Shown one piece after another: positions 1 to 13,456 of a DNA stretch of 13,456 nt. The position numbers and the translations under genes are program-made. Within the stretch, counting starts at the first letter, position 1. The number at the start of each line of letters is the position of its first letter. The notes beneath the pieces were generated by a model. That model was given only the letters and a program-made list of their open reading frames with translations. It made no database searches and was not told the origin of the DNA. The stretch spans positions 1 to 13,456 of the forward strand of contig JAIOPF010000227.1 in the NCBI GenBank assembly GCA_021414045.1, given 5' to 3'. This DNA is from Deltaproteobacteria bacterium. Lineage in GTDB: Bacteria; UBA10199; DSSB01.

Positions 1-3000
1 TCATAATCATCCAGCTTCTGCAGGTATTCGGCGGCCAGGGAATTTTCCCGGATCGTTCCCAGCAGTTTCTTGGCCTCGGCAACCTTGTTGTCGGCGAGCT
101 GAATCTTCGCGAGAGAAAACACCGCCAGTTCATGCAAGGACTTGTCCTGCTGTCCCACCGCCTTATCGCCCGGATCCATGGCGCCGACCTTGTTGAAATA
201 CTCCTTGGCCTTCTTGTCCATCCCCGAGACCTCGTAAAGCTGAGCCAGGGAATAATAACCGGAGGCTTGCTGGGCGGGATTGTCCTTGAGCGTTTCAATA
301 TGGTCCTTGACCGGCTTGAGCGCCTCCTCCATCCGGTTTTCGATGCCGAGTTGACCGAAGGCTTGGGCGGCTTCCATCGACTTCTCCAACCGGTCCTCGA
401 AGGGAATCGCCGCGTTGCGGCTTTCGGCGAGGATCTCGTGGGCCTGAACGTCGGCCTGGGCGAAACCGCGCACGAATCCGGGATTGAGCGCGGTGAAAAA
501 CTGCGCGTCGCTGTCGGTCTGGGCGCGAGCCAGGCGTTCCTGGAAATCCGTCGCGATCGCGTCCTTCTGCGCAATCTCATCATCGCTCAATTCGCGGAAT
601 TTACCGGCCTTGGTCAGATAGACTTTGATGGAGGTTTCCGCCATGGCCCAATCGCCGGAATACATCGTCTTGATTTTCTCGATTTCGGCCCAATCCTGCT
701 TGTCGAGTGCCTTCAAGGTCGAGTCGGAGCCGCGATCGATGTAATATCCTAAAATACCGTTTTCGAGGCGCGAGCCCAAGCCGTGCTGGCGCATTTCCTG
801 GACGGCCCAATCCTGGTTTCCGCCTAGGGACGGGAAAAAGTAATAGTCGTTGTCCTTCAGGATCGAGCTCGCCAGCTTACCGACCGCCTCGGTCGGCGCC
901 TTCAACGCATCGGCCTGCAAAATCGGGGTGTCCCCTTCAGTGAAGGATTTCTTGAACATGGCCAGGGTGGCGGCCAGTTGCTTGGTCTGCTCCAGGCGGA
1001 AGTCCGCCGGAAGATCGGGATTGGTCTCGATCATTCTGCGCCACAGGTCCGCGTGATTCATCAGCTGCTTGCCGAGCTCTTTACGGACTTCTTCTTTGGA
1101 AATATCTTGAGTAGCGATGAGCGCCAAATCGGTCTGCAGGAGGGAGCCGGCTTCCATCACCTGCCCCTGGCGCACTTCGGGCTTGTACATCGACCACTCG
1201 GCGCCGTACGCCTTCATGTCGTGCTCGGCACCGTGCTCGTTGCTATCCACCAGGAAGGAGATGTGATCACGCATCGTGCTCTGGTGCTCTTTCAGGTTCT
1301 TGTCGATCTCGTTGACGCTTTCCTGGTCCTTCAACTGGTCGAAGAAATTGCGGGCGGCCATCATCCCTTGGATGCCGACATTGTTGTAGCTGTAATCGTT
1401 GCCCTTGAGGCTGTTCGCGGTCCTCGTCGCCTTCTCCAGCATCATGTCCTCGTACGCCTGAAGAACTCCCCCATCGTCGGTCCTGATTCCAGAACCGCGA
1501 AGCGCGTCGAACATCTTGGACTGCATGTCCAAGGTATCGATCGTCGACAGAGCACCCTCATCCTCCGGCTTCACCCAGTACTGCATGTTTTCGATGTACT
1601 CGATGGTTTCCTTGACCTTGTCCGCATTTCCCAATTGGGCGTAGAGCTGCAGCGCCTCGACGGCCTTAGCCCTGCCGGCGACGTAATCGTCCTGCTGGAG
1701 AGCTACCCCTGCTTGATTCATGTCGGAATTGGCCTGTTGGTTGGCCGAGAAAAAAGTCCTCATACCGTCCGGCGTAAAAAACCTGCGAAACCTGGCGTCC
1801 TGCGTATCGTCGCCGACGAAAGCCTGGTGATACATCGCTTCAAAAGCCTTTTCGTCCCAAGCTAGGCCTTCGCTCGTGGCAAAGGCTTTCGCGGCGCTCT
1901 TCAACCCGGGTCCCTCAAAATTCGCCCCATGAAATACGTCCAGCATTTTGAGATTAATATCGTGGTCGCTGGGCAAGGGCATCGCATACTTCCGCTCATC
2001 GACGCCGCGAATGACTTTCCATCCGCTCATGATCTGTCCGTAGACTTCCACCCGAAAGCTGCTTTCCATGGAAGTCGCCGGCAAGGCGTCCATGAGGGTC
2101 TTCCATTGGTCCAGGACGTCAGCCAGGCCCGAGTAATATCCAAACTCCCGGTCGACCCCGGCGGCCGCTTGGGCGTTATCCAACTGCTGGACAGTCGAGA
2201 GTTCGCCTGGCTTCAGATTAAGAGTCGGCAGGGCCGCGTCGCGCAGCGCTATCATCTCGGCCTCCACCGTTGAGACGTCCTTCTGGTACAAGGCTAAGTT
2301 ATCCGTGTAATGGATGTCCTCGAGTAAAGCTGTAATTTTTTTGGTTTCCTCGATCTGGGCATAAGAATTCTTGGCGATATCGATGATATCGTGCGCCGGC
2401 TTAAAACCCTCGAAAGGTTGGAGGGATTTCGACTCCCAGAATTGCACCCGGAAATTGTAAAATTCCCGTGCCAGCTTTAAGTTTTCGAAGCGGTCGGTTT
2501 GGCTCAAAGTGGGAAATTTACGCAGAGTTTCGGCGTAATTGGAAAGTTTCCACATTGCCACCAAGGCATCCCGCTGTCCTGTCCAGGACTTTTCGTAGGA
2601 CTGGCGCCGGAAATTATCCATCTCCGTCCGGAAATCGGAGCGCAATTTCCCCTGATACCGAGTCCGAAAGTCCGTATAGATTTCCCCGAGGGAATTCGGC
2701 GCCGACTGCAGCAGCGTTTGGTAATCCGCCATCGCCTTTTCATAATTCCCGGCGCGTTCGTATGCCTCCGCTCGGTTCAACAAGGCCGAAGCATCGTTCG
2801 GAACTAATGCCAAAACCCTTTCGCTCGCTTCAAGAGAGCTTTGGTATTTCGCCTTCGCGGCGTCCAAATCGCCTTCCGCGACCTTGATGCGGCCCAGCAC
2901 GAGGTCCAGGCGGGCCCGCACACGTAGGACGCTCGCTTGGTCGTCCTTCGACAGCGTGGCGAAATTTTTCTCGAGATCCTCCAGCGCCTTGGAAACTTGC

Positions 3001-4508
3001 TCGGAGGACTTTTTGGCCTCGATGAGCTGTTCCTTACTGAAAGCGACCGTTTCCTGTTTCCCTGGGGTCGGCAGGTTTTGCGCGGTACGCTCCAAGGCCT
3101 TGGCACCCATAGCGACCATCTTGTTCAGATCGGCGATGTCCTGGGTCGCCAACCAAGACCCCGCGTTCTCAGCCTTGTCCAATAGGATGGGGACCGATTC
3201 GGCGACCGGCAGGTATTGCGAGGCTTCCTGCCACCGTTCTTGCTTCAGATAGAGGTCTCCCAGGGCCTTGCGGTCGTCGGCGCTGTCGGGAACGATGCCT
3301 ACGACCGCAAGATAAGCAGCAATCGCTGGTTCGTCCTTTCCCTGAGCGACGAAAAATTCGGCCAAATTGCGATTCGCGTCCGCCGAGCCGGGGCCGAAAT
3401 GCGCCGCCGCCTGGAGATGGCATAGCTTTTCCGCATCCGTCTTCGCCTGATCGGCGAGGCGGGAGTGATAGAAGGAGAGCTTTTCGTTCCAAGGCAGGGC
3501 CTCGAAGGCGGCCTTTTCCTTTTCCGAAGCAAAGGCGAGCTTCGCCAGGCCCTTTTTGCCGGCCCAAGGCGGCGGCTCCAGACCAATTTCGCCGCGAACC
3601 TGGACCACACGCGGATCGTCGCTGCTGGAGAACTTCATCAGCTCCACGGCGTCGAGCTTGCGGTCACCGTTGCTCGATCCCCCTTCCATGAGTCCAGTTG
3701 GGATCCCGGATTTCCGCAGGGCCTCGAACAATTTCATCGCCTCGGGATTACTTTTTCGGTCGAACCCCAGCTTGTAGGGCGTTCCCAATTCATCCGCGAC
3801 CAAGGCCTTTTCGTGAAATTTTCGCGCCTTCTCCTTATCCCCCAGTTCGGCGGCCTTGCTCGATGCCAGCTCGTAGAGCGTCTTCGCATCGTGGTAGCGT
3901 TTCGTAGCGATCAATTCTTTTGCAACGAAGTTCACCGCCAGCGCGCGGGCTATCTTCGCGTCGCCCGCGCCCTGCAGCCACTGCACGATGCCGACCAAGT
4001 CCTTTGGGTCGGCGACGCGGACGGCGGCGCTGGCGTGTTCCCGAGCCGCTTCCGTTTGGTGGCGGCGATACATCAGGTCCGCCAAGGCACGATGCGCGCC
4101 AGAGTTGTCCCGGTCCATTTGGAGGGCCAGCCGGTAGGATTTTTCGGCGAATCCCCAGGCCTTCTCGGCATCCTTGCTTCCGGCAGGCAATGCCTTGGCC
4201 TTGCCCTCGAGTTCTTGACCCTTTTCCACCAGTCGTTTCGCTCCGCCAGCGGGCGAGTCGGTCAAAAGCTTGTCGACCTCCGGCGCCACAAAACCCAGCA
4301 ACGCGAAGGCCTTTTTTAATATTTCGATTTCCTTCTGGATTTTCGGGGAAAATTTATCCGAGTGACTCAGGACATAGGCGACCACCTTCGGGCCATCGAC
4401 TTCGCCGGACTCTTTGTGCGGGAGCTCCTTTTCAGGGATGTGCCCCTCTTTCGCCCAGCGCAGGAAAGTACCGTAAAGATCTCGCTGAGTTTCAATGCCA
4501 TTCGCCAT
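1..4508 (-). CDS. Giant TPR-rich protein, C-terminus beyond the window (more than 1,500 aa)
   Basis: Open without a stop from ATG 4508 to the window edge, about 1,502 codons. Not recognised as a named family. TPR-like helix pairs are visible near residues 125-165, 365-430, 570-605 and 1405-1500. Examples are ALADLMYRRHQTEAAREHA, ALGDLYLKQERWQEAS and RAEAYERAGNYEKAMADYQ. Residues 278-289 (SSNGDRKLDAVE) resemble an EF-hand loop with Ser at position 1 and Arg at position 6. The preceding FEALRKSGIPT (261-271) recurs as FDALRGSGIRT (1000-1010), again followed by a loop-like segment. There is no signal peptide or obvious membrane segment, so it is cytoplasmic or exported by a route needing no Sec signal. 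The chosen start has AAGGGG seven bases upstream. An in-frame ATG nine codons earlier (4535) overlaps the restored stop of the upstream gene. TPRs suggest a protein-binding scaffold; a specific function is not inferred. Confidence 0.85.
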   Translation of the reverse strand, partial: MANGIETQRDLYGTFLRWAKEGHIPEKELPHKESGEVDGPKVVAYVLSHSDKFSPKIQKEIEILKKAFALLGFVAPEVDKLLTDSPAGGAKRLVEKGQELEGKAKALPAGSKDAEKAWGFAEKSYRLALQMDRDNSGAHRALADLMYRRHQTEAAREHASAAVRVADPKDLVGIVQWLQGAGDAKIARALAVNFVAKELIATKRYHDAKTLYELASSKAAELGDKEKARKFHEKALVADELGTPYKLGFDRKSNPEAMKLFEALRKSGIPTGLMEGGSSNGDRKLDAVELMKFSSSDDPRVVQVRGEIGLEPPPWAGKKGLAKLAFASEKEKAAFEALPWNEKLSFYHSRLADQAKTDAEKLCHLQAAAHFGPGSADANRNLAEFFVAQGKDEPAIAAYLAVVGIVPDSADDRKALGDLYLKQERWQEASQYLPVAESVPILLDKAENAGSWLATQDIADLNKMVAMGAKALERTAQNLPTPGKQETVAFSKEQLIEAKKSSEQVSKALEDLEKNFATLSKDDQASVLRVRARLDLVLGRIKVAEGDLDAAKAKYQSSLEASERVLALVPNDASALLNRAEAYERAGNYEKAMADYQTLLQSAPNSLGEIYTDFRTRYQGKLRSDFRTEMDNFRRQSYEKSWTGQRDALVAMWKLSNYAETLRKFPTLSQTDRFENLKLAREFYNFRVQFWESKSLQPFEGFKPAHDIIDIAKNSYAQIEETKKITALLEDIHYTDNLALYQKDVSTVEAEMIALRDAALPTLNLKPGELSTVQQLDNAQAAAGVDREFGYYSGLADVLDQWKTLMDALPATSMESSFRVEVYGQIMSGWKVIRGVDERKYAMPLPSDHDINLKMLDVFHGANFEGPGLKSAAKAFATSEGLAWDEKAFEAMYHQAFVGDDTQDARFRRFFTPDGMRTFFSANQQANSDMNQAGVALQQDDYVAGRAKAVEALQLYAQLGNADKVKETIEYIENMQYWVKPEDEGALSTIDTLDMQSKMFDALRGSGIRTDDGGVLQAYEDMMLEKATRTANSLKGNDYSYNNVGIQGMMAARNFFDQLKDQESVNEIDKNLKEHQSTMRDHISFLVDSNEHGAEHDMKAYGAEWSMYKPEVRQGQVMEAGSLLQTDLALIATQDISKEEVRKELGKQLMNHADLWRRMIETNPDLPADFRLEQTKQLAATLAMFKKSFTEGDTPILQADALKAPTEAVGKLASSILKDNDYYFFPSLGGNQDWAVQEMRQHGLGSRLENGILGYYIDRGSDSTLKALDKQDWAEIEKIKTMYSGDWAMAETSIKVYLTKAGKFRELSDDEIAQKDAIATDFQERLARAQTDSDAQFFTALNPGFVRGFAQADVQAHEILAESRNAAIPFEDRLEKSMEAAQAFGQLGIENRMEEALKPVKDHIETLKDNPAQQASGYYSLAQLYEVSGMDKKAKEYFNKVGAMDPGDKAVGQQDKSLHELAVFSLAKIQLADNKVAEAKKLLGTIRENSLAAEYLQKLDDY

Positions 4509-4532
4509 CGTCTTACCCCTTTGCCGCGTTCC

Positions 4533-4537
4533 CATCA
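4533..4537 (-). other. TGATG stop/start overlap, alternative start of the giant TPR gene
   Basis: The restored reading frame of the upstream 1,220-aa gene ends with TGA at 4537-4535. Its last base begins an ATG (4535-4533) that is in frame with the giant TPR gene. An AGGA lies eight bases upstream of this ATG. It would add nine residues (MGTRQRGKT) to the start at 4508. Either start is possible; both imply tight co-translation of the two genes. Confidence 0.5.
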
Positions 4538-7500
4538 GGGTTTTCCTGCCGCCTGGAAGGCGGGCTCGAAATCCATGGAGGAATCGGTAGAAAATCTCGG
4601 AATCGAATCGCTATTTTCATTGGCGCGGAACTCCAACCTCGCCTGCATTCTCTCACCCAACCACATTTGGAGTCTAGCAAAGCCGGGGACCCCCATCGCC
4701 ATGGTATTTCCAATTTTTAAGGAGAATAGGAAAGCCATCCCTTGGAGCCAGGCCTGGGGCGAAAATGCCGCTTGGAAGGCCTTTTTCGGATCGAAACGGC
4801 CGATTTTGGCGAGCTGGTAATTGCCCATCAGGAAATCCCAGCCTTGAAACGTCGCCTTCAAGATAGGCGGCTCTTAAGACCGCATCCTTGGCCAGCATCT
4901 CTTCCGTCACGGTGACGCCGGCGGCCAATTTCCCACGGGTGACCAGGCGGGCGGCGACGAGCCCCTCGACTTTGCCTTCGAAAAATTTGGAAAAGGCCTG
5001 ATTCGCTTTGCCCAAAACTCCGAACATGGCCCAGTTGAGCATCGTTTCTTCCACGAATGCGAAGGGATCGTTACCGATCTGAGTGAAAGCCTTCCCCACC
5101 CCGGAAAGACCATGATAGGCCGCACCATGCAAAACACGGGCGGTGAGAGTGAAACCCAGGGCATTCGCAAAACTCACCCCGAGTCTGCCCACACCTAAGA
5201 GAGCCGCGCCCTCCGCGAATAAGGCGCCCGCGCCCGCGGCGAAGGGAGTCACCGCCAAGCACAGCGAGAGGCGATTGCTCAAGGTCAGGTCTTTGTATTC
5301 GTCCTGCAACTCTTCGTGGATGGCCATCGCGTTGATGCGTCCCTCTTGGTCCAAGCTCGTGGACAACTCGCGGTATTTACGTTTCATGATCTCGAAATTT
5401 CCCGTGCTTTCAAAATCGTCCCATTCCGCATCGGTGACCGCCGAAGCGACCCAAGCACCGGCATTTCCAATGCCGTTCCAGATGTCGTCGAAGAGGTCGG
5501 CTTCGTCGCTCATCTCGTCATAGGCGCTGATGCGGGCGGAAACCTCGGCTCGCAAGACCTCGAAATCCACCCTTTGTTGGAGGCCCAGGTAGGCTTGAAG
5601 GCGCGCTTCCAGGGTGTTGACGGAATTTCCGGACCAAGGATCGGTGTTTTCGAGCTCTTGCAAAAGCGGCTTCATTCGGGAGCCCGCCGAGGAGGAAATT
5701 TTCTCCACTTCGCCCATTTCCCACTTGAGAATGGCGAGGCTATGGGCCTCTGCCCAGGTCTGTTCCTGTTTGGAGATTTGTTCAAGAGCGGCAAAGGTCT
5801 TGGGCAAATCGCTAGCATCGATGCTTTCCAAGTTATCTTGAACCTGCTTAAATTCGGTGCGAAATGCGTCCAACTTGCTTTGAGCTTTCTCCGTCTCCGT
5901 GCGGGCATCCTCGCGCAATCCATCCAGAACTTGCGATGACGCTCCCATCCATAGGCCATACTCGTATTTAAGAAGATTGAAGCCCCTCCCAAGAAGCGCG
6001 GCGCCAGGGCCCATGCCGGAAGTGTGGTGCTGGATATCGTGGTCTCGGGCGCGGGCCACCTCTTCTTCCAAAAATTTTTCATACAGCTTGCCGCTATTTT
6101 TCAAGAAGGCCACGAGCGCTTTTGCCATATCCGCATCGACGCCCACGTAACCGTTTTCACGGGCCGTGCGAAAGGCGGCTTCATTGATCGAGAAATCTTT
6201 CATCCGCGCCAGGTTGACTTCCAAATCCCTCTGGTAACGGTATCCGATATTCTTCTCGTATAGTTCGGCATGCTCGTCCTTTTGCACCTCTCGAATAAAA
6301 CGAACGATCTCCGCATCGTCATGCCCGTATAATTTCTCCAACGCTTGGACACGGGCTTCCAAAGCAGCGGCGTCGCGGCTCAGCCCATCGCTTTCTCCGT
6401 ATCCCGTGACTTCGTCCCCAAGGTCGTAGGTCAATCCCGTTTCGGGCTCGACCTCCAGATGTTCGTGTCGGTGAACGGTTTTCCTTAAATCCTCGAGCAC
6501 CTCCTTCATCAGGGCCGCCAAGGCGGGATCATCGGTTTCGAGCCGATGCAGGGTCTTCAGGATACGCGACTCTTCCACCAACTTGGGCGAAGGACGCATA
6601 TCGTAAGCGCAGGTTGCCTTATCCTGTTCGGTTAGCTCCGTTTTGAATAGGAGTCGGGAACCTTTCGGATAAAATTTGGCCAGGTCGAGCATGGCAGCGT
6701 TTTTTCGTGGTTCTATCTCCGAATAACGCTGTAGCGCCGCCAACTCCCTCTTCCCGGCTTCCGCCAAATCGGAGCGTCCGTAAAAATAGCCGGCGGCAAG
6801 GTGCAGTCGCGTTTTGCGCACCAGGGGCGACGAATCCAAGTGTTGAATTCCGCCTTCCGCGGAATCTTCCCACCGTGATAAAGACTCGCGCATCGCCGCT
6901 AATTTCACGACCAAGCCCGCAGAATTTCGTTCTTGCGCCATCGGCAAGGCTTCGGACAATAGACCCAGGAATTCCATCGCGCTCTCTTGAAATACCTTCG
7001 CCTTTTCCGGATCCTGGGAAGACCAGGGAAGGACTTTCTGGATGGGGTGAGCTAAATCGAAGAAAGCGGATTCCACCGCGTTCCAATCGCCTTTGCCCGC
7101 GGACTGTGAAAGGGACTCCAAAAGGACGCGGGCATTCTTCCACTCCCCGCCCGATTCCAAGACCTCCAGTTGCTGGAAGGAAGCCTTCAGGGAATCAAGC
7201 TCATCGCCACGTATTTGCAATTTTTTTTGATTACCTGCCGTGGCGCGATTCGCCATCTCCTGCAAAGAAGCCACGGCTTCTTCCTCCAAGAGATCCTTCA
7301 GACCCGACTCGAAGGAATGGATTTCGCCGCGCAGCGCTTCAATCTCCAAAAGAATGCCGGGATCGGCATCTTGCGTCTCTTTGGTGGGGACCAAATTCCA
7401 ACTTCCGTCCGAGGCTTTCTCGTTTTTTAAAGACCCCAAGCTTAGAGGATAGGAAATCACCAAGCGGTGCATCCCATTCTTGAGTTCCCTCCTCTGATAC

Positions 7501-8198
7501 ACGGTGAAACCGTTCAAGCGCTCGGCCTGCGTGAGCAGTTGCTCGGCGGCCAAAAAATCTCCCGCCGCAAGCTTGCGCCGGGCCGATTCGACCCACTTCT
7601 TCGGTTCGCGATGCAAGGCGATGTAGGCGCCCTCATAAGGCGGCTTCACATAGATCGATTGCTGGTAAAAGATCATCTCCGGATCGTTTTCCCGAAGATA
7701 AATCCATTTCGCCAGCACCAGGTCGTCGTTTTTTTCCGCCCAAGCGCCGACTTCGAGATCGTAGGCGATCTTATCTTCCGGCGTCGCAAAAGGCAGCCAA
7801 CGGCGCTGCAGCCCTACTTGGACGGCCTGGGCGAATTTCCCGGATTCGGCGTAGCGACGCGCCAATTCCTCGATAAGACGCGCGTCGCGTTGCCCGTCTT
7901 GATACCGCTCTTCCAGCGCCGGCAATTCGGACAATTCCGGCCTAAAGCCCGCGATCAGTCGCGGCCCCCTCGATTTCACCGTCTCCGCCCAGAGCGATGA
8001 CAAACCGAAAAACTTTGCGGGTTGCTCCAACATTCTCTTCAAGGAGGCCGTCGCTATGGCTCGCTCCGCCTCCCGCTTCCGAGGCGCCACGTGCGACTTT
8101 CTGACCGCAAGCTTCTCCTTGGGCGGGGTTTTCAACGGCAACTCTCCATCGGGAATGGAGACTCGACCCGGATTTAGTTTTTGGAATTTGGGCGTCAT
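4535..8198 (-). CDS. Large helical-repeat protein with hydrophobic C-terminal region, frameshifted near 4862 (about 1,220 aa restored)
   Basis: Start ATG 8198 has AAGGA seven bases upstream and lies 10 bp after the small upstream gene. The first frame runs to a stop at 4674 (1,174 aa), but its last 60 or so residues look out of frame. From about 4862 the neighbouring frame continues with natural composition and codon use to TGA 4535. Residues 1-50 are basic and proline-rich. TPR-like helices follow at about 105-135 and 205-235, long charged helices or coiled coil at about 285-345 and 760-855, and a Gly/Ala-rich hydrophobic region at about 972-1035. A further apolar stretch (WLQGMAFLFSLKIGNTMAMG) lies at about residue 1150 in the restored frame. 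No known family or catalytic motif is recognised. Membrane insertion by the C-terminal region is inferred. The restored stop overlaps a possible start of the next gene. Confidence 0.75.
4840..4873 (-). other. Probable one-base frameshift site in the 1,220-aa gene
   Basis: Frame A reads LRAAYLEGDVSRLGF and then becomes unlike protein (QLPARQNRPFRSEKG). Frame B, open after a TAA at 4874-4876, reads LKATFQGWDFLMGNYQLAKI and continues for about 100 plausible residues. Skipping one base between 4840 and 4873, for example C4862, joins RAAY to LKATFQGW. There is no homopolymer here. A CTT codon that could slip forward to TTG is present, but without a following stop or rare codon. A sequencing error or natural mutation is therefore likelier than programmed +1 shifting. 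Confidence 0.75.
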
Positions 8199-8208
8199 CC
8201 TGCGATCC

Positions 8209-8667
8209 TTAAGCGGCTTTCAGTTGCACGCTCAGTTGCTCTTGGAAATGCTCGCCCAGACGCTTCCACTTTTGGGCCTTGGTCCAGTGATCGCGAGCCG
8301 CGCCGCTTTCCGAGAGTTCGGCTTCGCGGGCGGATTTTTCCTCGGCCTGGGCCTGGACCTGGGCGCGCTTGCTCGCCTTGAGGAATAACGTCAATTCGTG
8401 TTGCTTGATCTGAACTTGGATCTCGAGGCGACGCATCGGATCGGCTTGGAGGGAAGCCAGCGCGGCTTCGACCCGGGGCAATTGCTCTTGCCAAGCCTTG
8501 AGGTCGCCGGTCTCGGCCGATTTTTCAAGCTTGCGGAGTTCCGCGGCGACTTGCTGGACGGGGGTCGAAGGCAGCACCGATTGCTTCGATTGCGCCATCG
8601 CGACGAGAAAAGGATTCAAACCGGGTTTGGTGAATTCGGGTTGGATCGTGGTATTTTCTTGGTTCAT
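8209..8667 (-). CDS. Small helical protein, paralogue of the 12403-12864 product (152 aa)
   Basis: An all-alpha, charged protein with no signal peptide. A short conserved N-terminal motif, PEFTKPGLNPF, is followed by two or three amphipathic helices rich in Gln, Ala, Glu and Lys, ending in KAQKWKRLGEHFQEQL. It aligns over about 136 residues with the other small protein at roughly 55 % identity with one single-residue gap. The start at 8667 is preferred over the in-frame ATG at 8676. AGGAGG (8677-8682) abuts the 8676 codon but lies nine bases from 8667, and the predicted sigma-54 transcript would start near 8684. It heads the left-hand gene group, 10 bp before the large 1,220-aa gene. The family is not recognised. 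An adaptor or chaperone-like partner of the large protein beside it is a guess from position, size and helical content. Confidence 0.9.
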   Translation of the reverse strand: MNQENTTIQPEFTKPGLNPFLVAMAQSKQSVLPSTPVQQVAAELRKLEKSAETGDLKAWQEQLPRVEAALASLQADPMRRLEIQVQIKQHELTLFLKASKRAQVQAQAEEKSAREAELSESGAARDHWTKAQKWKRLGEHFQEQLSVQLKAA

Positions 8668-8676
8668 AGCGCTCAT

Positions 8677-8690: not shown

Positions 8691-8710
8691 CTATTCCAAG
8701 AGGCGTGCCA
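8691..8710 (-). promoter_or_regulatory. Sigma-54-like promoter of the left-hand gene group
   Basis: The minus strand reads TGGCACG-CCTC-TTGGAATAG. The known sigma-54 consensus is TGGCACG-N4-TTGCW. The -24 element is perfect, preceded by C, and the spacing is exact. The one deviation is G for C at position -12 (8696). Predicted +1 is near G8684, giving a 17-base leader that carries AGGAGG ahead of ATG 8667. The site is 19/21 identical to the box before the paralogous gene. Confidence 0.55.
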
Positions 8711-8740
8711 GAGAACCGAAATAAAAAATCTGATTAACTT

Positions 8741-8755
8741 ATTAATATTATTAAT
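8741..8755. repeat. Perfect 7-1-7 inverted repeat upstream of the sigma-54-like box
   Basis: ATTAATA-T-TATTAAT, 31 bp upstream of the -24 element. It could be an operator or activator half-site pair. In DNA this AT-rich, short palindromes also arise by chance, and no equally clear copy was seen at the second promoter. Confidence 0.35.
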
Positions 8756-8807
8756 ATTTGTTACATCTAAGAGAATGAAGGAAATGGTGTAGTATGTATG
8801 ATTTGTT

Positions 8808-8817
8808 TAATATTTTA
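8808..8817. promoter_or_regulatory. Conserved upstream element, copy 1
   Basis: TAATATTTTA begins 98 bp from the -24 T of the left-hand promoter. The same 10-mer occurs 97 bp from the -24 T of the right-hand promoter. Flanks are also similar (TATGATTTG versus TATAGTTTG). The distance suits an upstream activator site of a sigma-54 promoter, but shared descent of the duplicated region explains it equally well. Confidence 0.4.
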
Positions 8818-8903
8818 ATTTAATATAAAAATTATATATAATACATATAGTTATTAGCATATTTTAAAATGGTTAAAATTGACAAAATAATGCCATTTTA
8901 GCT

Positions 8904-8946
8904 AAAAATTTACACTATTCCGAACCCCCAGCAGAACAGTAAATTT
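8904..8946 (-). terminator. Possible AU-rich terminator after the right-hand gene group
   Basis: On the minus strand AAATTTACTGTTCT pairs with GGAATAGTGTAAATTT through about 14 pairs, including two G-U pairs and a two-base bulge, around a G-rich loop. Five T residues (8908-8904) end the stem. It starts 27 bases past the stop of the 541-aa gene. The stem base is AT-rich and the T-run is short, so termination may be partial. It separates the two gene groups. Confidence 0.4.
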
Positions 8947-8972
8947 CTTCATGCCCCACAGGTACCCCTCTT

Positions 8973-10598
8973 TCATCCCTTCCCCTTGACGCGTCCCACT
9001 TCATGGCTCATCCCGGCGGCGCGATAGTCTTTCCAGGCCTTCTTCAACAGGACTTCGGCGGAAATGACCGGGTGGTTCGCGTGATTCCGGTGGTAGGAGA
9101 CAGAGCTTTGACAGGCCGTAGCCCAGGTGACGAATTTCGCCGCGGTCTCATAGGCTAAAGCAGCATCGGCTAGATTCCCCTGGTCGTGATTGCGCTCCGC
9201 CTTTTGATAATAGAGACGGTGAGCGCGATACGATACCCACTCAAGACTTACCTTGATTCCCCACACCTGGCTGGCCTGTGCCCACTCCCGCATGGACTGA
9301 GTTACCGGTGCCGCGGCGGCAGACAGCAAGCCCTCGAGACTGTCGACCGCGACGGCGTAAGCTTCGGCCGCATCTTCCGGTTCCTGGAGCCTCTCTAAAA
9401 TCTCGCCACGCCGCTCGTACAGCTCGATCATCTCGAGTCGAAGCTTGATTTCTTCGGGAATTTTTCCTGGATACCAAGAAGCCTTGGCGGAGTCCTCGGC
9501 ATCCGAACGGCCCCCGAACTCCAATATTTTTTGGCGGAGCACGAACTCCGCGATCTCCAGGACCTTGAGCGCTTCACGCGGATAACCGGTGTCTTCCAGA
9601 AGCTTCGCGGCATTGAGCCGGAGCGCCGCCGGTTCGACATTAAACCCATTGCTAAAACCCAAGGCATCGAAAATCGCCTTATCGAAGTCCGATGAGGGTT
9701 TCTCCAAGACCAAGTCCGATTCCCGATGGATGCCGCTGAGAAAATAATGCAGGGATTTTCCCCGGATGCGGCGCACCTGAATGGAATCAGATGCCGGCGA
9801 GCCTTCGATCGCCACGAGCACGGCCTCCATCTCTTGGGCACGCTGCGGGATATGAAAGATTTCTTTCCAACCGGGAGGTTCGCCGAAGGCCAGTACCATA
9901 CCTCTTTTCAGCAAGAGCGGCTGTTGTGGCTCGACACGAGTCCATTTCGCCCCGGCCCGGTTCCAAAGCCAAGTGGCCGCGGTCTCGCCCCCGTCCCGAG
10001 TCCTAAGAAAAACCTGATTTTCTTCGCGAACCATTTCTTCATGCCCGAACCAAGAATTGGAATCGGAGGAAAATTGCAGATAAGACTTACTCGGACGTCC
10101 GACTTGGATCACGCCTTCTCCCGCGGGAAATTTGAGCGTCGCGAGGTCCCCCTCGACGCGTACTCGCTCCTCCATCCCTCCACCCAACAATAATTGGATC
10201 CCTTCCAAGGGCATGGCGACCAGGGACCCGCCCCGCCATCCTTGATACAGGCGCCTCAGCATGGAAGCAGGGCGATAGGATTCGCCGGATTGCGTGATCC
10301 ACCGCCAGGCTTGCTGCCAAAGGTTCCGTATCGATACAGGATGGTAGAACGAGCGGGATTCGGGAGCTATGAGCCGCGCCTGCGGCAGATTTTGAAACTG
10401 GCGAAGACTCTTTGCGAAACGGGGCGCCAAGGCTGTGTCCTTCTCGAAACGGCGGAGCGCCACCATTTCGACCGGCTCCTGCTCTACAAGGGCAAGGGCC
10501 GTCTCTCGAGTGGAGGTCCGTTCCTCGAAAGGGCCTTCACCGATATCCAGCGACCGTTCGCCGAACGGTGAAGGGCCACGTGGAGCGCGTGGTGTCAT
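8973..10598 (-). CDS. FHA-like and TPR-like protein (541 aa)
   Basis: The start ATG overlaps the stop of the upstream gene (ATGA), with GGAGG ten bases upstream. Residues 1-85 are charged and low in hydrophobics. Residues 152-242 have a beta-rich pattern resembling a forkhead-associated domain: VIQVGRPSKSYLQF, then FGHEEMVREENQVFLRTRDG, then PLLLKRGMVLAFGE. The Gly-Arg of the first FHA motif (167-168) is present, but the Ser/His and Asn-Gly phosphothreonine-binding motifs are not clear. Three TPR-like helix pairs follow at about 324-357, 385-425 and 456-490 (NHDQGNLADAALAYETAAKF). There is no signal peptide or membrane segment. It shares its layout of disordered N-terminus, FHA-like domain and helical C-terminus with the 595-aa product just upstream. 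A scaffold or binding role is inferred; phosphopeptide binding is doubtful. Confidence 0.88.
   Translation of the reverse strand: MTPRAPRGPSPFGERSLDIGEGPFEERTSTRETALALVEQEPVEMVALRRFEKDTALAPRFAKSLRQFQNLPQARLIAPESRSFYHPVSIRNLWQQAWRWITQSGESYRPASMLRRLYQGWRGGSLVAMPLEGIQLLLGGGMEERVRVEGDLATLKFPAGEGVIQVGRPSKSYLQFSSDSNSWFGHEEMVREENQVFLRTRDGGETAATWLWNRAGAKWTRVEPQQPLLLKRGMVLAFGEPPGWKEIFHIPQRAQEMEAVLVAIEGSPASDSIQVRRIRGKSLHYFLSGIHRESDLVLEKPSSDFDKAIFDALGFSNGFNVEPAALRLNAAKLLEDTGYPREALKVLEIAEFVLRQKILEFGGRSDAEDSAKASWYPGKIPEEIKLRLEMIELYERRGEILERLQEPEDAAEAYAVAVDSLEGLLSAAAAPVTQSMREWAQASQVWGIKVSLEWVSYRAHRLYYQKAERNHDQGNLADAALAYETAAKFVTWATACQSSVSYHRNHANHPVISAEVLLKKAWKDYRAAGMSHEVGRVKGKG
10595..10598 (-). other. ATGA start/stop overlap between the 595-aa and 541-aa genes
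   Basis: The upstream frame ends AAA CCA TGA, and the downstream ATG uses the A of CCA plus the TG of TGA. A GGAGG inside the upstream gene serves the downstream start. This is the usual sign of translational coupling and equal expression. Confidence 0.85.
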
Positions 10599-12382
10599 GG
10601 TTTTTTATCCTCCGTGATGGAGAAATACCGTTCCAAATTTTGCCGAAGCCGTTCATTCGGCGCGCGGGAAGCCTCATAGATGTCCTGCCACCACCGGGCG
10701 AAGCCGGTCCCCTGCTCTCGATGCGTCGCCTGTAGGATGGTACGGGCTTGGATCAAACCGAAATTCAATCGAAACATCGCCTCGAGCGCCACGGGTATCG
10801 TATCAACGGCCTGCGGCAGCCAGGCTTCCGGGGCGGCGAGCTCCGCGGGCGTGCGTTCCATCAGACCGAGAAAGGTGTCCAGACCGATGCGCGTGGCGAG
10901 TTTTCCGTCCAACCCCCAACGTTCCCGCAGCTCGGGCAGAATCGCCAGCATGCCGCGGAAGAAGAATCCTAAGCCCCCGGGGACGCCGGAGAGAAATCCT
11001 CGGAACAAGCTCATCTCCATCTGGGTCCGGTCGAAGAAGGCCAACAGTTCGTCGAAGCGCGGGTTCGGCCCGGAGCTATCCTTCCAATCGCGGATAAAGG
11101 CCGGAACCTGCTCCAGGCCGCCTTCGAATCTCGGTTCGAAACGGGCTAAGCGTTCCAGGAGAGAGGCGATTTGATCCGGGTTGAAGCCCTGACCAGAGAG
11201 GTCTTCGAGGAATTTCGGCAGGCGATCCAGCATACCGATACCGAAACGCTTCGCCATCGGCCCCTCGAACAATACCTGCGTTAGCTTTTCCGGAGACCAC
11301 CCGATGCAACGCGCCATCTCCAACAAGGGCGGCAGGCGCACCAATCGAAGCTCGGCCTGCTCCGGACTATTCGCGACGACGGCGCTCAACAAGGCTTTGC
11401 TCTGGTCCTTCGACCAGCCAACCTCTTGCATCGATCGAAACAGGTCGCGGAAACGCCATTGCGTCCAAGCGGGAGACTGCCCGATCAGGATGGCCAGATA
11501 GTCGCCAAGCTCCGGAATCTTTTCGAATTGGGCGGGATCGGCCCGGGTAAACTCTACCAGACTCCAACGATAGGGATCCTTCGCCGTATCGCGGTGCCGC
11601 TCGACGCGCAGGACGGTTTGGGAAGTCGGATCCAAGGGCTCGCCGGGCGAATCCTTCGGATCTTTTCCGAAGAGAAGGATAGTTCCATCTTCCAGCACGA
11701 CGTCCTTCCCTCTTGGTTGCGGAATCCATTCCTTCCCTACTTCGCCGCTTTTTTTGGTTAAGATCCAAACGACCGGATCGCGACCCAGGTTGCGCACCAT
11801 CAGAACCCCATTTTTCTCCTCGAAAACCGCCTGCTCCGGGCCAATGGCGGCATTTTTGAAGAGGTTGACGAATTGCGGGCCGCGAGTGCCAAGGTCCTCG
11901 ACACGGCTGCGTAAATGCAGCATTCCGTCCCGGACGCCGTAAAGTTCATTCTCCGCCGTGTTGGAACTTCCTGAAAGATTTCGGTCATTATGGTCTTTCG
12001 AGGGCTTGCTCCCCAGCGTGAAAATGGTGCCGGGCTTGAGAAAGGACAAGCGATGGACCCGAGTGCCGAACAAATTCCGAGCGCGCAAATAACTTGGAAA
12101 TTCCGACCAACTCGTTTTCACCGGTCGAGGCGCGATCCCGTCGGCGCCGGCTATCGCCTGAAAACTGATGTAGTCGCGAGACATTTCCGCGCTAGAAGCT
12201 CCCGCCTCCCCGAAACGGGCCTGAGCTTGGTCGACCGGCTTTCCCAGCGTGGATTCGTGCGCGGAAGTTTCCGAAACGCCTAAACCCCCGCGTCCTTCAC
12301 GAGCGCCCTCCAAGTCTCTCAATTCCGTGGGATCTCTTTCAGAACCACCCCTAGGAGGTGGAATTCGCCCGTTACCGCCCAT
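10595..12382 (-). CDS. FHA-like protein with tandem helical repeats (595 aa)
   Basis: Start ATG 12382 has AGGAG five bases upstream and lies 20 bp after the small gene. Residues 1-70 are Gly/Arg/Glu-rich and probably disordered. Residues 153-240 resemble an FHA domain: LGTRGPQFVNLF, then IGPEQAVFEEKNGVLMVRNLG, then KDVVLEDGTILLFGK. Compared with the family, the Ser-x-x-His pair reads Gly-x-x-Gln and the Asn-Gly loop is replaced, so phosphothreonine binding is doubtful. From about 287 to 436 there are four units of about 38 residues; three start VGWSKDQ, IGWSPEK and QGFNPDQ, and two of these have a central RLP. The remaining C-terminus is helical and moderately hydrophobic. The repeats recall mTERF or TALE-like helical repeats by pattern only. 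There is no signal peptide. It probably works with the coupled 541-aa protein. Confidence 0.88.
   Translation of the reverse strand: MGGNGRIPPPRGGSERDPTELRDLEGAREGRGGLGVSETSAHESTLGKPVDQAQARFGEAGASSAEMSRDYISFQAIAGADGIAPRPVKTSWSEFPSYLRARNLFGTRVHRLSFLKPGTIFTLGSKPSKDHNDRNLSGSSNTAENELYGVRDGMLHLRSRVEDLGTRGPQFVNLFKNAAIGPEQAVFEEKNGVLMVRNLGRDPVVWILTKKSGEVGKEWIPQPRGKDVVLEDGTILLFGKDPKDSPGEPLDPTSQTVLRVERHRDTAKDPYRWSLVEFTRADPAQFEKIPELGDYLAILIGQSPAWTQWRFRDLFRSMQEVGWSKDQSKALLSAVVANSPEQAELRLVRLPPLLEMARCIGWSPEKLTQVLFEGPMAKRFGIGMLDRLPKFLEDLSGQGFNPDQIASLLERLARFEPRFEGGLEQVPAFIRDWKDSSGPNPRFDELLAFFDRTQMEMSLFRGFLSGVPGGLGFFFRGMLAILPELRERWGLDGKLATRIGLDTFLGLMERTPAELAAPEAWLPQAVDTIPVALEAMFRLNFGLIQARTILQATHREQGTGFARWWQDIYEASRAPNERLRQNLERYFSITEDKKP
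11075..11524 (-). repeat. Tandem repeats of about 38 codons in the 595-aa gene
   Basis: Translated units begin near residues 287, 321, 360 and 398 and end near 436. Shared positions are Gly-Trp/Phe-Ser/Asn-x-Asp/Glu-Gln/Lys at the start, a Leu-Leu or Val-Leu pair four to five residues later, and [LV]P-x-[LF]-[LI] near the end. The first unit is the most divergent but keeps the SPxxxxxR and Met-x-x-x-GWS register. Diverged protein-level repetition, not recent DNA duplication. Confidence 0.55.
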
Positions 12383-12402
12383 ACCCGCTCCTGATCAAAA
12401 GT

Positions 12403-12864
12403 TTAGAAAAGTCCGCCCACGTGATTCTGCAAGCGCTGCTGAAAGTGTTCGCCCAAGCGCTTCAATTTCTGCGCCTTCGCCCAAAGTTCGCGCGAAGCGG
12501 CGGCATTGTCGGACAGCTCGGCTTCCTTCGCCTGTTGTTCGCTGGCCTGAGCCTGCTGCAGGGCTTGCTTGCTGGCCTTGAGATACACGGTCAATTCCTG
12601 CTTCTTGACCTGCACCTGAACTTCGAGACGCTTGATGGGATCGCTGTAGATCTCTTCGGAAAGTTTCAAGACCTCGGGAAGTTTCGCCTGCCAAGCTCGA
12701 AGCTCGCCAGCTTCCGCCAATTTTTCCAATGACCGAATCTCGACATTCAATTTCTGCAACGGCGTCGCCACAATCAGAGCGCCGCGCGATTGCGCTAGCG
12801 CCGCGAAGAAGGGATTCATTCCAGGTTTGGCGAATTCGGGCTTGATTGGCGATTTGATTTCCAT
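12403..12864 (-). CDS. Small helical protein, first gene of the right-hand group (153 aa)
   Basis: Paralogue of the 8209-8667 product. PEFAKPGMNPFFAALAQS at residues 9-26 is followed by helical segments with LEKLAEAGELRAWQ, RLEVQVQVKKQELTVYLKAS and KAQKLKRLGEHFQQRL. The C-terminal block KRLGEHFQ is identical in both copies. No signal peptide, no membrane helix and no catalytic motif. The start at 12864 is supported by alignment with the paralogue, since the conserved PEF block begins a few residues in. However, a predicted sigma-54 start site would lie only one or two bases before it, and just a weak AGG lies seven bases upstream, so translation may be leaderless. It is followed after 20 bp by the 595-aa gene. 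Role unknown; a partner of the larger products is inferred. Confidence 0.9.
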   Translation of the reverse strand: MEIKSPIKPEFAKPGMNPFFAALAQSRGALIVATPLQKLNVEIRSLEKLAEAGELRAWQAKLPEVLKLSEEIYSDPIKRLEVQVQVKKQELTVYLKASKQALQQAQASEQQAKEAELSDNAAASRELWAKAQKLKRLGEHFQQRLQNHVGGLF

Positions 12865-12872
12865 GGCTTTAC

Positions 12873-12892
12873 CTATTCCAATAAGCGTGCCA
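12873..12892 (-). promoter_or_regulatory. Sigma-54-like promoter of the right-hand gene group
   Basis: The minus strand reads TGGCACG-CTTA-TTGGAATAG. The -24 element and spacing fit the sigma-54 consensus exactly, and position -12 is G instead of C. The box is 19/21 identical to the one at 8691-8710 and starts at the same place relative to a paralogous gene. Predicted +1 falls at about 12866, nearly touching ATG 12864. Confidence 0.5.
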
Positions 12893-12988
12893 GGGCGCTC
12901 GCAAAGACCCTCATTTTAACCACTTGAATTTACTTATTGTTTTATGCAGAAGCCGGAAGGTTTCGAATTGGGATGTTGTATAGTTTGC

Positions 12989-12998
12989 TAATATTTTA
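12989..12998. promoter_or_regulatory. Conserved upstream element, copy 2
   Basis: TAATATTTTA begins 97 bp from the -24 T of the right-hand promoter and pairs with the copy at 8808-8817. The preceding TATAGTTTGC resembles TATGATTTGTT in the other copy. Confidence 0.4.
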
Positions 12999-13272
12999 CA
13001 GTGACTACCTTAAACTAATTTATTTTCAATAGGTTATATTCATTTACCCAATATGTATTTATAAGAATAAATTCAAACATATCATTCAAAATAGCCCAAA
13101 AACCTTGAGACTCTCCCATTTCACCGCGCCCCACAACGGCAAGAAACAAAGACAAATACGTCTAATCATTTCATAAGAATCAAAAATCATACATTCAAAA
13201 TCAGGCTTATAAATAATTGATTTTTATACATTTTTTTAAAAAATATAATTTCATCTCATAATAGACCCTTTT

Positions 13273-13288
13273 TCCTTCATCAGAAGGA
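13273..13288. repeat. Inverted repeat TCCTTC-ATCA-GAAGGA
   Basis: A perfect 6-4-6 inverted repeat lying 81 bp before the -24 element of the plus-strand sigma-54-like box. That is a suitable distance for an activator site. It could also be chance. Confidence 0.35.
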
Positions 13289-13368
13289 CACACCCCATTC
13301 CCGGCCCTCAGAAGAATTTTTCCATACTTTTCATCAAGTTAAAATCGCATCCACCACGAACGCCGATC

Positions 13369-13388
13369 TGGCACAGCCTTTGTAATAG
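13369..13388 (+). promoter_or_regulatory. Plus-strand sigma-54-like promoter pointing out of the window
   Basis: The plus strand reads TGGCACA-GCCT-TTGTAATAG. It shares C-TGGCAC, the exact spacing and the AATAG tail with the two minus-strand boxes, though its surroundings are unrelated. Deviations are A for G at the end of the -24 element and T for C at -12. Predicted +1 is G13395. No start codon lies between there and the window end, so it would drive a gene or small RNA further right. Confidence 0.4.
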
Positions 13389-13399
13389 CTTTTAGGCAG

Positions 13400-13423
13400 T
13401 GCCGCTCGGGGCGGCAAAAAAAA
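13400..13423 (+). other. Hairpin with A-tract just after the predicted plus-strand start site
   Basis: TGCCGC-TCGGG-GCGGCA forms a six-pair GC-rich stem with a five-base loop, followed by eight A residues (13416-13423, the first inside the stem). It begins about five bases after the predicted +1, so it would form the 5' end of that transcript. The tail is A, not T, on the plus strand, so it is not an intrinsic terminator in that direction. On the minus strand the T-run precedes the stem. Confidence 0.4.
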
Positions 13424-13456
13424 GATCTCTGTACCAGACCCTATTCCTCATCCTCA

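Follow-up and report, generated by a model that had tools for sequence, protein, structure and literature searches.

The DNA analyzed in this study is a stretch of 13,456 nucleotides (nt) that makes up the whole of contig C174 (JAIOPF010000227.1) of G000, a deltaproteobacterial genome (GTDB lineage UBA10199; DSSB01; assembly GCA_021414045.1) of 2.6 Mb in 385 contigs that is 84% complete. This stretch, hereafter the window, probably carries a locus whose sigma-54 promoters have a relaxed -12 element and are co-regulated, being switched by a Ser/Thr kinase and a bacterial enhancer-binding protein (bEBP); the start sites are putative, the shared activator is presumed and the relaxed silencing is predicted. 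The placement of sigma-54 promoters before the heads of two paralogous operons, proposed in an initial annotation of the window, was supported by the presence of rpoN, by the enriched spacing of the two promoter elements and by the boxes before orthologous genes.

The sequence TGGCACG-N4-TTGGAATAG was found exactly at both places where it had been annotated (8710-8691 and 12892-12873, both on the minus strand). Each copy is located directly 5' of a small open reading frame (ORF) that heads a gene group on the same strand, and the two small proteins are paralogous, with identities of 51-55%. A third box, whose full sequence is TGGCACAGCCTTTGTAATAG, faces the contig end and was absent from the initial annotation. 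In promoters A and B and the third promoter (Table 1), the -24 element TGGCAC, including its GG, is exact and lies five bases from TTG, which is the sigma-54 spacing. The -12 element is TTGG in A and B and TTGT in the third promoter and not TTGC, so the boxes are variants rather than members of the consensus. The spacers differ in general, as annotated, but 1 to 3 of their letters are common (3/5 for A and B), by chance or descent. At up to three mismatches the window contained 3 matches, compared with a mean of 0.11 after shuffling, and three or more matches were found in 0/200 shuffles. In a scan of the G000 genome, TGGCACN5TTGNAATAG had three exact matches, all on the window contig, and 18 sites at up to two mismatches, compared with 10 for the reversed-pattern control.

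Boxes preceded all six small-gene copies found in four genomes, which are A and B of G000, A and B of G001, the copy of G004 and B of G002; the boxes were therefore present upstream of every ortholog found in the relatives. The G001 boxes are TGGCAC-CAATT-TTGGAATAT before small gene A and TGGCAT-GCCGT-TTGTATTGG before small gene B, and the same contig has two more sites, TGGCAC-GAGAA-TTGTATTTT and TGGCAC-TGTCT-TTGTAATGA. In G004, the small gene is preceded by TGGCAC-AAACA-TTGGAATAT, with a divergent TGGCAC-CTCGC-TTGTAATAG. G002 has the B site, whose -24 element is TGGCAT, similar to that of G001 B. The -12 base is C in 0/10 of these locus sites, counting the three of the window and those of the relatives; weaker matches within locus genes (e.g., L063:6208 and L090:16763) were left out. 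The shared GG noted initially is not fixed at the locus, where other sites have TTGT. An eleventh site, on contig C236 of G002, is 99% identical to the third site and leader of G001. The absence of C from each of seven listed locus sites gave a value of 1.6e-5, which was computed post hoc on related sites and is given no weight.

The pattern TGGCACN{3,7}TTGNNNNH, whose final H drops sites with G at that position, had 152 sites in G000, G001 and G004, of which 150 were listed (all but two of G001). Among the sites listed, those at spacing 5 numbered 33, 35 and 31 in G000, G001 and G004, respectively, and those at each other spacing ranged from 2 to 10. Among five further genomes scanned with this pattern (G002, G003 and G005-G007), the tally covered G002, G005 and G006, whose sites were listed completely. 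TGGCAC...TTG pairs were concentrated at the sigma-54 spacing in four of the resulting six genomes, including G002 (41 of its 56 sites at spacing 5). The -12 base of the 99 listed sites at spacing 5 in G000, G001 and G004 was C in 76, T in 11, G in 8 and A in 4, and it was C in 31 of the 41 sites of G002. A -12 C was mostly followed by T (TTGCT), and a -12 G or T mostly by AAT or AAC. The lineage mainly uses canonical sigma-54 promoters, and TTG[GT]AAT is a minority subclass that is used at the locus. In eight genomes, TTG[GT]AA[CT] occurred 34 times, with 28 occurrences at spacing 5 and 6 at the remaining four spacings combined; some of these are one site counted twice, as G001 and G002 are close relatives. 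Across 46 genomes of the class, TGGCACN5TTGNAATA had 29 sites, compared with 3 in the control, with T at -12 in 10, G in 9, C in 7 and A in 3. Among the G/T sites inspected outside the own family (G000-G004), five were within ORFs (both of G007 and those of G009, G014 and G043) and may be there by chance; the two of G024 were outside. One G024 site, L114:8046 (G024:C14:32045, minus strand), reads TGGCAC-GTGTT-TTGGAATA and is followed, after 40 nt, by the start of an ORF of 231 amino acids (aa). As G024 represents a different family within the class, the variant may extend beyond the family of G000-G004.

The rpoN gene that the initial annotation called for is present: G000 encodes sigma-54, with one match to PF04552 (E 8.1e-65). 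Among 40 genomes, exactly one PF04552 match was found in 38 and none in 2. A second RpoN with its own taste at -12 is not supported, as two matches were found in 0/40 genomes. Residues 8-487 of G001 RpoN align with solved sigma-54 chains, including the helix-turn-helix (HTH) and the RpoN box, and the RpoN fragment of G000 reads like G001 RpoN in both of these regions. G000 also had 29 PF00158 matches, and AAA+ activators with GAFTGA are encoded. The L1 loops of 22 of the 29 were read, of which 10 were of the GAFTGA type, 10 were GAFTHA or GSFTHA and 2 were other. The GAFTHA/GSFTHA domains were at loci L007-L010, L012-L014, L017, L020 and L023, and nine of them were within ORFs of 1100-1713 aa; in Desulfovibrio, GAFTHA is among the variants described as tolerated (PMC4641369). 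Contig associations and the bEBP linked to the locus lend no support to the idea that the -12 base co-varies with altered GAFTGA motifs: contigs that encode GAFTHA/GSFTHA proteins have TTGC sites (C156, C244 and C288) or a TTGT site (C333), and the motif of the locus-linked bEBP is GAFTGA.

This bEBP was found in the relatives. The locus of G004 encodes a Ser/Thr kinase-TPR protein of 973 aa and a protein of 588 aa with GAF, AAA+ and HTH_8 domains. The G001 kinase extends up to the edge of contig C13, and the end of contig C25 reads like the kinase C-terminus, followed by the bEBP. The bEBPs of G001 and G004 are 90% identical and both have GAFTGA. Nearby bEBP genes of the kind expected are thus present in G004 and, on the far side of a contig junction, in G001; none was found for the locus among the G000 loci examined, as described below. 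From this linkage, it is plausible that a single enhancer-binding protein activates the promoters jointly. As a separate observation, the TTGTAAT-type sites on G000:C333 (L068:1996), G000:C41 (L069:1186) and G003:C258 (L106:2234), all on the minus strand, are just 5' of, and divergent from, Ser/Thr kinase genes. In both C333 and C41, a single very long protein combines the kinase with AAA, TPR, GAF and sigma-54 activation domains.

Several results weigh against the reading of a co-regulated sigma-54 locus. The sites were found by motif search, so that in a comparison of nine sites, which left out G002 B because it is nearly identical to G001 B, the pairwise agreement of 442/504 at box positions is partly by construction; agreement was 40/180 (22%) in the spacer and 925/2880 (32%) in the 80 nt upstream. 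The informative part is the site at a similar distance before every small-gene copy found and the G at -12 that is retained in A, G001 A and G004 while their spacers and flanks differ. Some G001 sites deviate further (TGGCAT...TTGTATTGG). The enrichment at spacing 5 is weak in G005 (18/41) and absent in G006 (13/49 at spacing 5 and 12 at spacing 4). No close ortholog of the bEBP was found in the G000 loci examined, including all 29 PF00158 places, where the best match was 48%; perhaps the ortholog is missing because the genome is incomplete. No enhancer motif clearly beyond shuffles was shared by the upstream regions: the best 8-letter words occurred in 5/7 regions, and the shuffle maximum of 5 was reached in 2/100. 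Such a shared word is not evidence of an enhancer, since the regions of A and of the third promoter are one stretch read from both sides. Moreover, sites with G or T at -12 were not nearer to bEBP genes, which lay within 5 kb of 2/19 G/T sites, 14/76 C sites and 3/50 wrong-spacing controls; the variant boxes are not supported as markers of nearby bEBP genes by these counts. For kinase genes, the counts were 4/19, 7/76 and 5/50, respectively, so that G/T sites were numerically nearer, with no separate test. Finally, the leader of small gene A would be about 2 nt, from the +1 placed 12 nt after the -12 base to the ATG, without a ribosome site. This short leader casts doubt on the assigned start or, alternatively, suggests that A is translated in an unusual way.

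That the shared variant reflects a lineage-wide taste, with the sigma-54 of this lineage generally preferring TTGG followed by AATAG, as was initially suggested, is scarcely credible. Among G000-G004, 12 of the 13 TGGCACN5TTGNAATA sites have G or T at -12, but this pattern fixes the AATA tail. When the tail is left free, C is the base in 76/99 and 31/41 of the sites counted above, which already contradicts a lineage-specific preference. Binding of the boxes by another factor, such as another sigma factor or a repressor, with a mere resemblance to -24/-12 elements, would account for the missing -12 C, the most typical base after G. This explanation is very unlikely, given that TTG[GT]AA[CT] obeys the sigma-54 spacing (28/34 at spacing 5), that the subclass has TGGCAC in common with the numerous TTGC sites found alongside it in these genomes and that B, G001 A and G004 have their boxes at the right distance from ribosome sites.

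The boxes might also be sigma-54 promoters whose -12 change is tolerated drift, shared through common descent of duplicated promoters, with normal silencing. The promoters A and B and their copies in relatives precede paralogs and orthologs, so their changes are not independent, and G and T alternate at the locus. We consider drift unlikely. A, G001 A and G004 keep TTGGAATA while their spacers and flanks have diverged, as the low agreement of those regions indicates. In addition, the unlinked pair of G000 C233 and G004 C131, whose orthology was taken from the neighbor gene, keeps T at -12, and the subclass has its own tail of AAT or AAC, unlike TTGCT.

Under the preferred reading of a kinase- and bEBP-switched locus with a relaxed -12 element, RNA polymerase with sigma-54 would bind the boxes and start two paralogous operons and a divergent transcript, where each operon would encode a small protein and then large proteins, some of them TPR-like. 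As in known sigma-54 systems, the bound polymerase would wait until an AAA+ activator on the A+T-rich upstream DNA remodels the complex. The likeliest activator would be an ortholog of the GAF-AAA+-HTH protein that adjoins the Ser/Thr kinase-TPR protein in relatives. The silence of sigma-54 polymerase has been ascribed to the -12 C, whose loss is linked to weaker silencing without activator (PMC4551910). Because of this published link, the -12 element of the locus is regarded as relaxed: with G or T in place of C, the closed complex would be less tightly silenced, and basal or easily triggered expression would be possible. In published descriptions of sigma-54, its HTH and region I lie over the -12 region (PMC7057263, PMC5505868). 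Such a predicted relaxed element may equate to a leaky, a primed or merely a weaker promoter. A more tentative proposal, which we regard as possible but doubtful, is that the kept subclass TGGCAC-N5-TTG[GT]AAT exploits the loss of -12 C, so that a kinase-linked locus of very large proteins is primed or partly activator-independent beside TTGC promoters of the same single RpoN.

Similar to the canonical sigma-54 (RpoN) promoter, TGGCAC-N5-TTGC[AT], the promoters of the locus have the -24 element, the spacing, the TTG of the -12 element and A+T-rich upstream DNA, and rpoN and enhancer-binding proteins are encoded in G000. Different from it, they have G or T for the -12 C, mostly followed by AAT. 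A less conserved -12 C is also a feature of the activator-bypass sigma-54 sites described in Escherichia coli (PMC4551910), which were, however, seen with a mutant sigma-54 without region I; the -12 change found here has been retained in several genera at a single locus. The bEBP of G001 and G004 resembles GAF-type bEBPs, such as NorR (PMC2941729), in its GAF domain, AAA+ domain with GAFTGA and HTH. Different from NorR, it adjoins a Ser/Thr kinase-TPR protein, and its targets are predicted. Departures from the consensus are known for single sigma-54 promoters (PMC12316311); a narrow search of the open-licence PMC literature turned up neither this locus nor a conserved subclass of sigma-54 promoters with a base other than C at -12. 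A locus without -12 C that is kept across genera beside ordinary sigma-54 promoters is a natural test of the role of this base. The subclass would be missed by scans that demand TTGC, and it marks a likely co-regulated locus of large uncharacterized proteins tied to kinase signaling.

The features of the window are listed in Table 1. The order of the genes is 153, 595 and 541 aa downstream of promoter A and 155, 1174 and at least 1511 aa downstream of promoter B. When the small proteins and those of 595 and 1174 aa were compared with Pfam, NCBIfam and PDB sequences, no match exceeded the level of chance, and the 1511-aa protein was assigned to TPR without a PDB comparison. A profile search, scored among the 7993 candidates sharing most words, identified 24 relatives of the small proteins, of which those named are called "hypothetical protein".

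Table 1. Positions of promoters, genes and other features in the window
Feature	Position	Strand	Description	Remark
Promoter A	12873..12892	-	TGGCAC-GCTTA-TTGGAATAG, sigma-54 type, G at -12	putative +1 ~12866
Promoter B	8691..8710	-	TGGCAC-GCCTC-TTGGAATAG, sigma-54 type, G at -12	putative +1 ~8684, directly 5' of AGGAGG
Third promoter	13369..13388	+	TGGCAC-AGCCT-TTGTAATAG, T at -12	divergent from A; putative +1 ~13395
Leader of third transcript	13395..13456	+	small hairpin	block 13415-13455 93% identical to G001
A+T-rich region 5' of promoter B	8711..8972	.	candidate enhancer region	25% G+C (window, 56%)
A+T-rich region between divergent A and third promoters	12893..13368	.		34% G+C
Small gene A	12403..12864	-	153 aa, no family match beyond chance	24 database relatives
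595-aa protein	10595..12382	-	no Pfam, NCBIfam or PDB sequence match	
541-aa protein	8973..10598	-	weak sub-cut-off TPR signal	
Small gene B	8209..8676	-	155 aa as listed, paralog of A	probable start 8667
1174-aa protein	4674..8198	-	no family match	4 database relatives
TPR protein	3..4535	-	at least 1511 aa	runs off contig

Similar to promoter B, promoter A of G001 and the promoter of G004 have their putative start directly 5' of AGGAGG. The leader of the third promoter is long and structured, with the small hairpin and a 40-nt block that is common to G000 and G001 (L062:6514-6643). The G001 and G004 (L063:10155-10069) leaders then hold a perfect G+C-rich hairpin, around which TTCCTCA and TGAGGAA are able to pair; in G004, this pairing would cover the ribosome site. 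Rfam had no match in the third leader and one sub-threshold match in L063 (E 0.2), which was taken as chance. In five tests, CCTCATCCTC of the third leader paired no better with the small-gene ribosome sites than shuffled leaders did (fractions 0.10-0.53). The contig of the window ends where the G+C-rich hairpin would begin. At its other end, the truncated 1511-aa TPR frame has a positional counterpart 3' of small gene B on G001:C13 (minus strand, L061:8895 into L090), where the search tool counted 5942 aa for the open frame.

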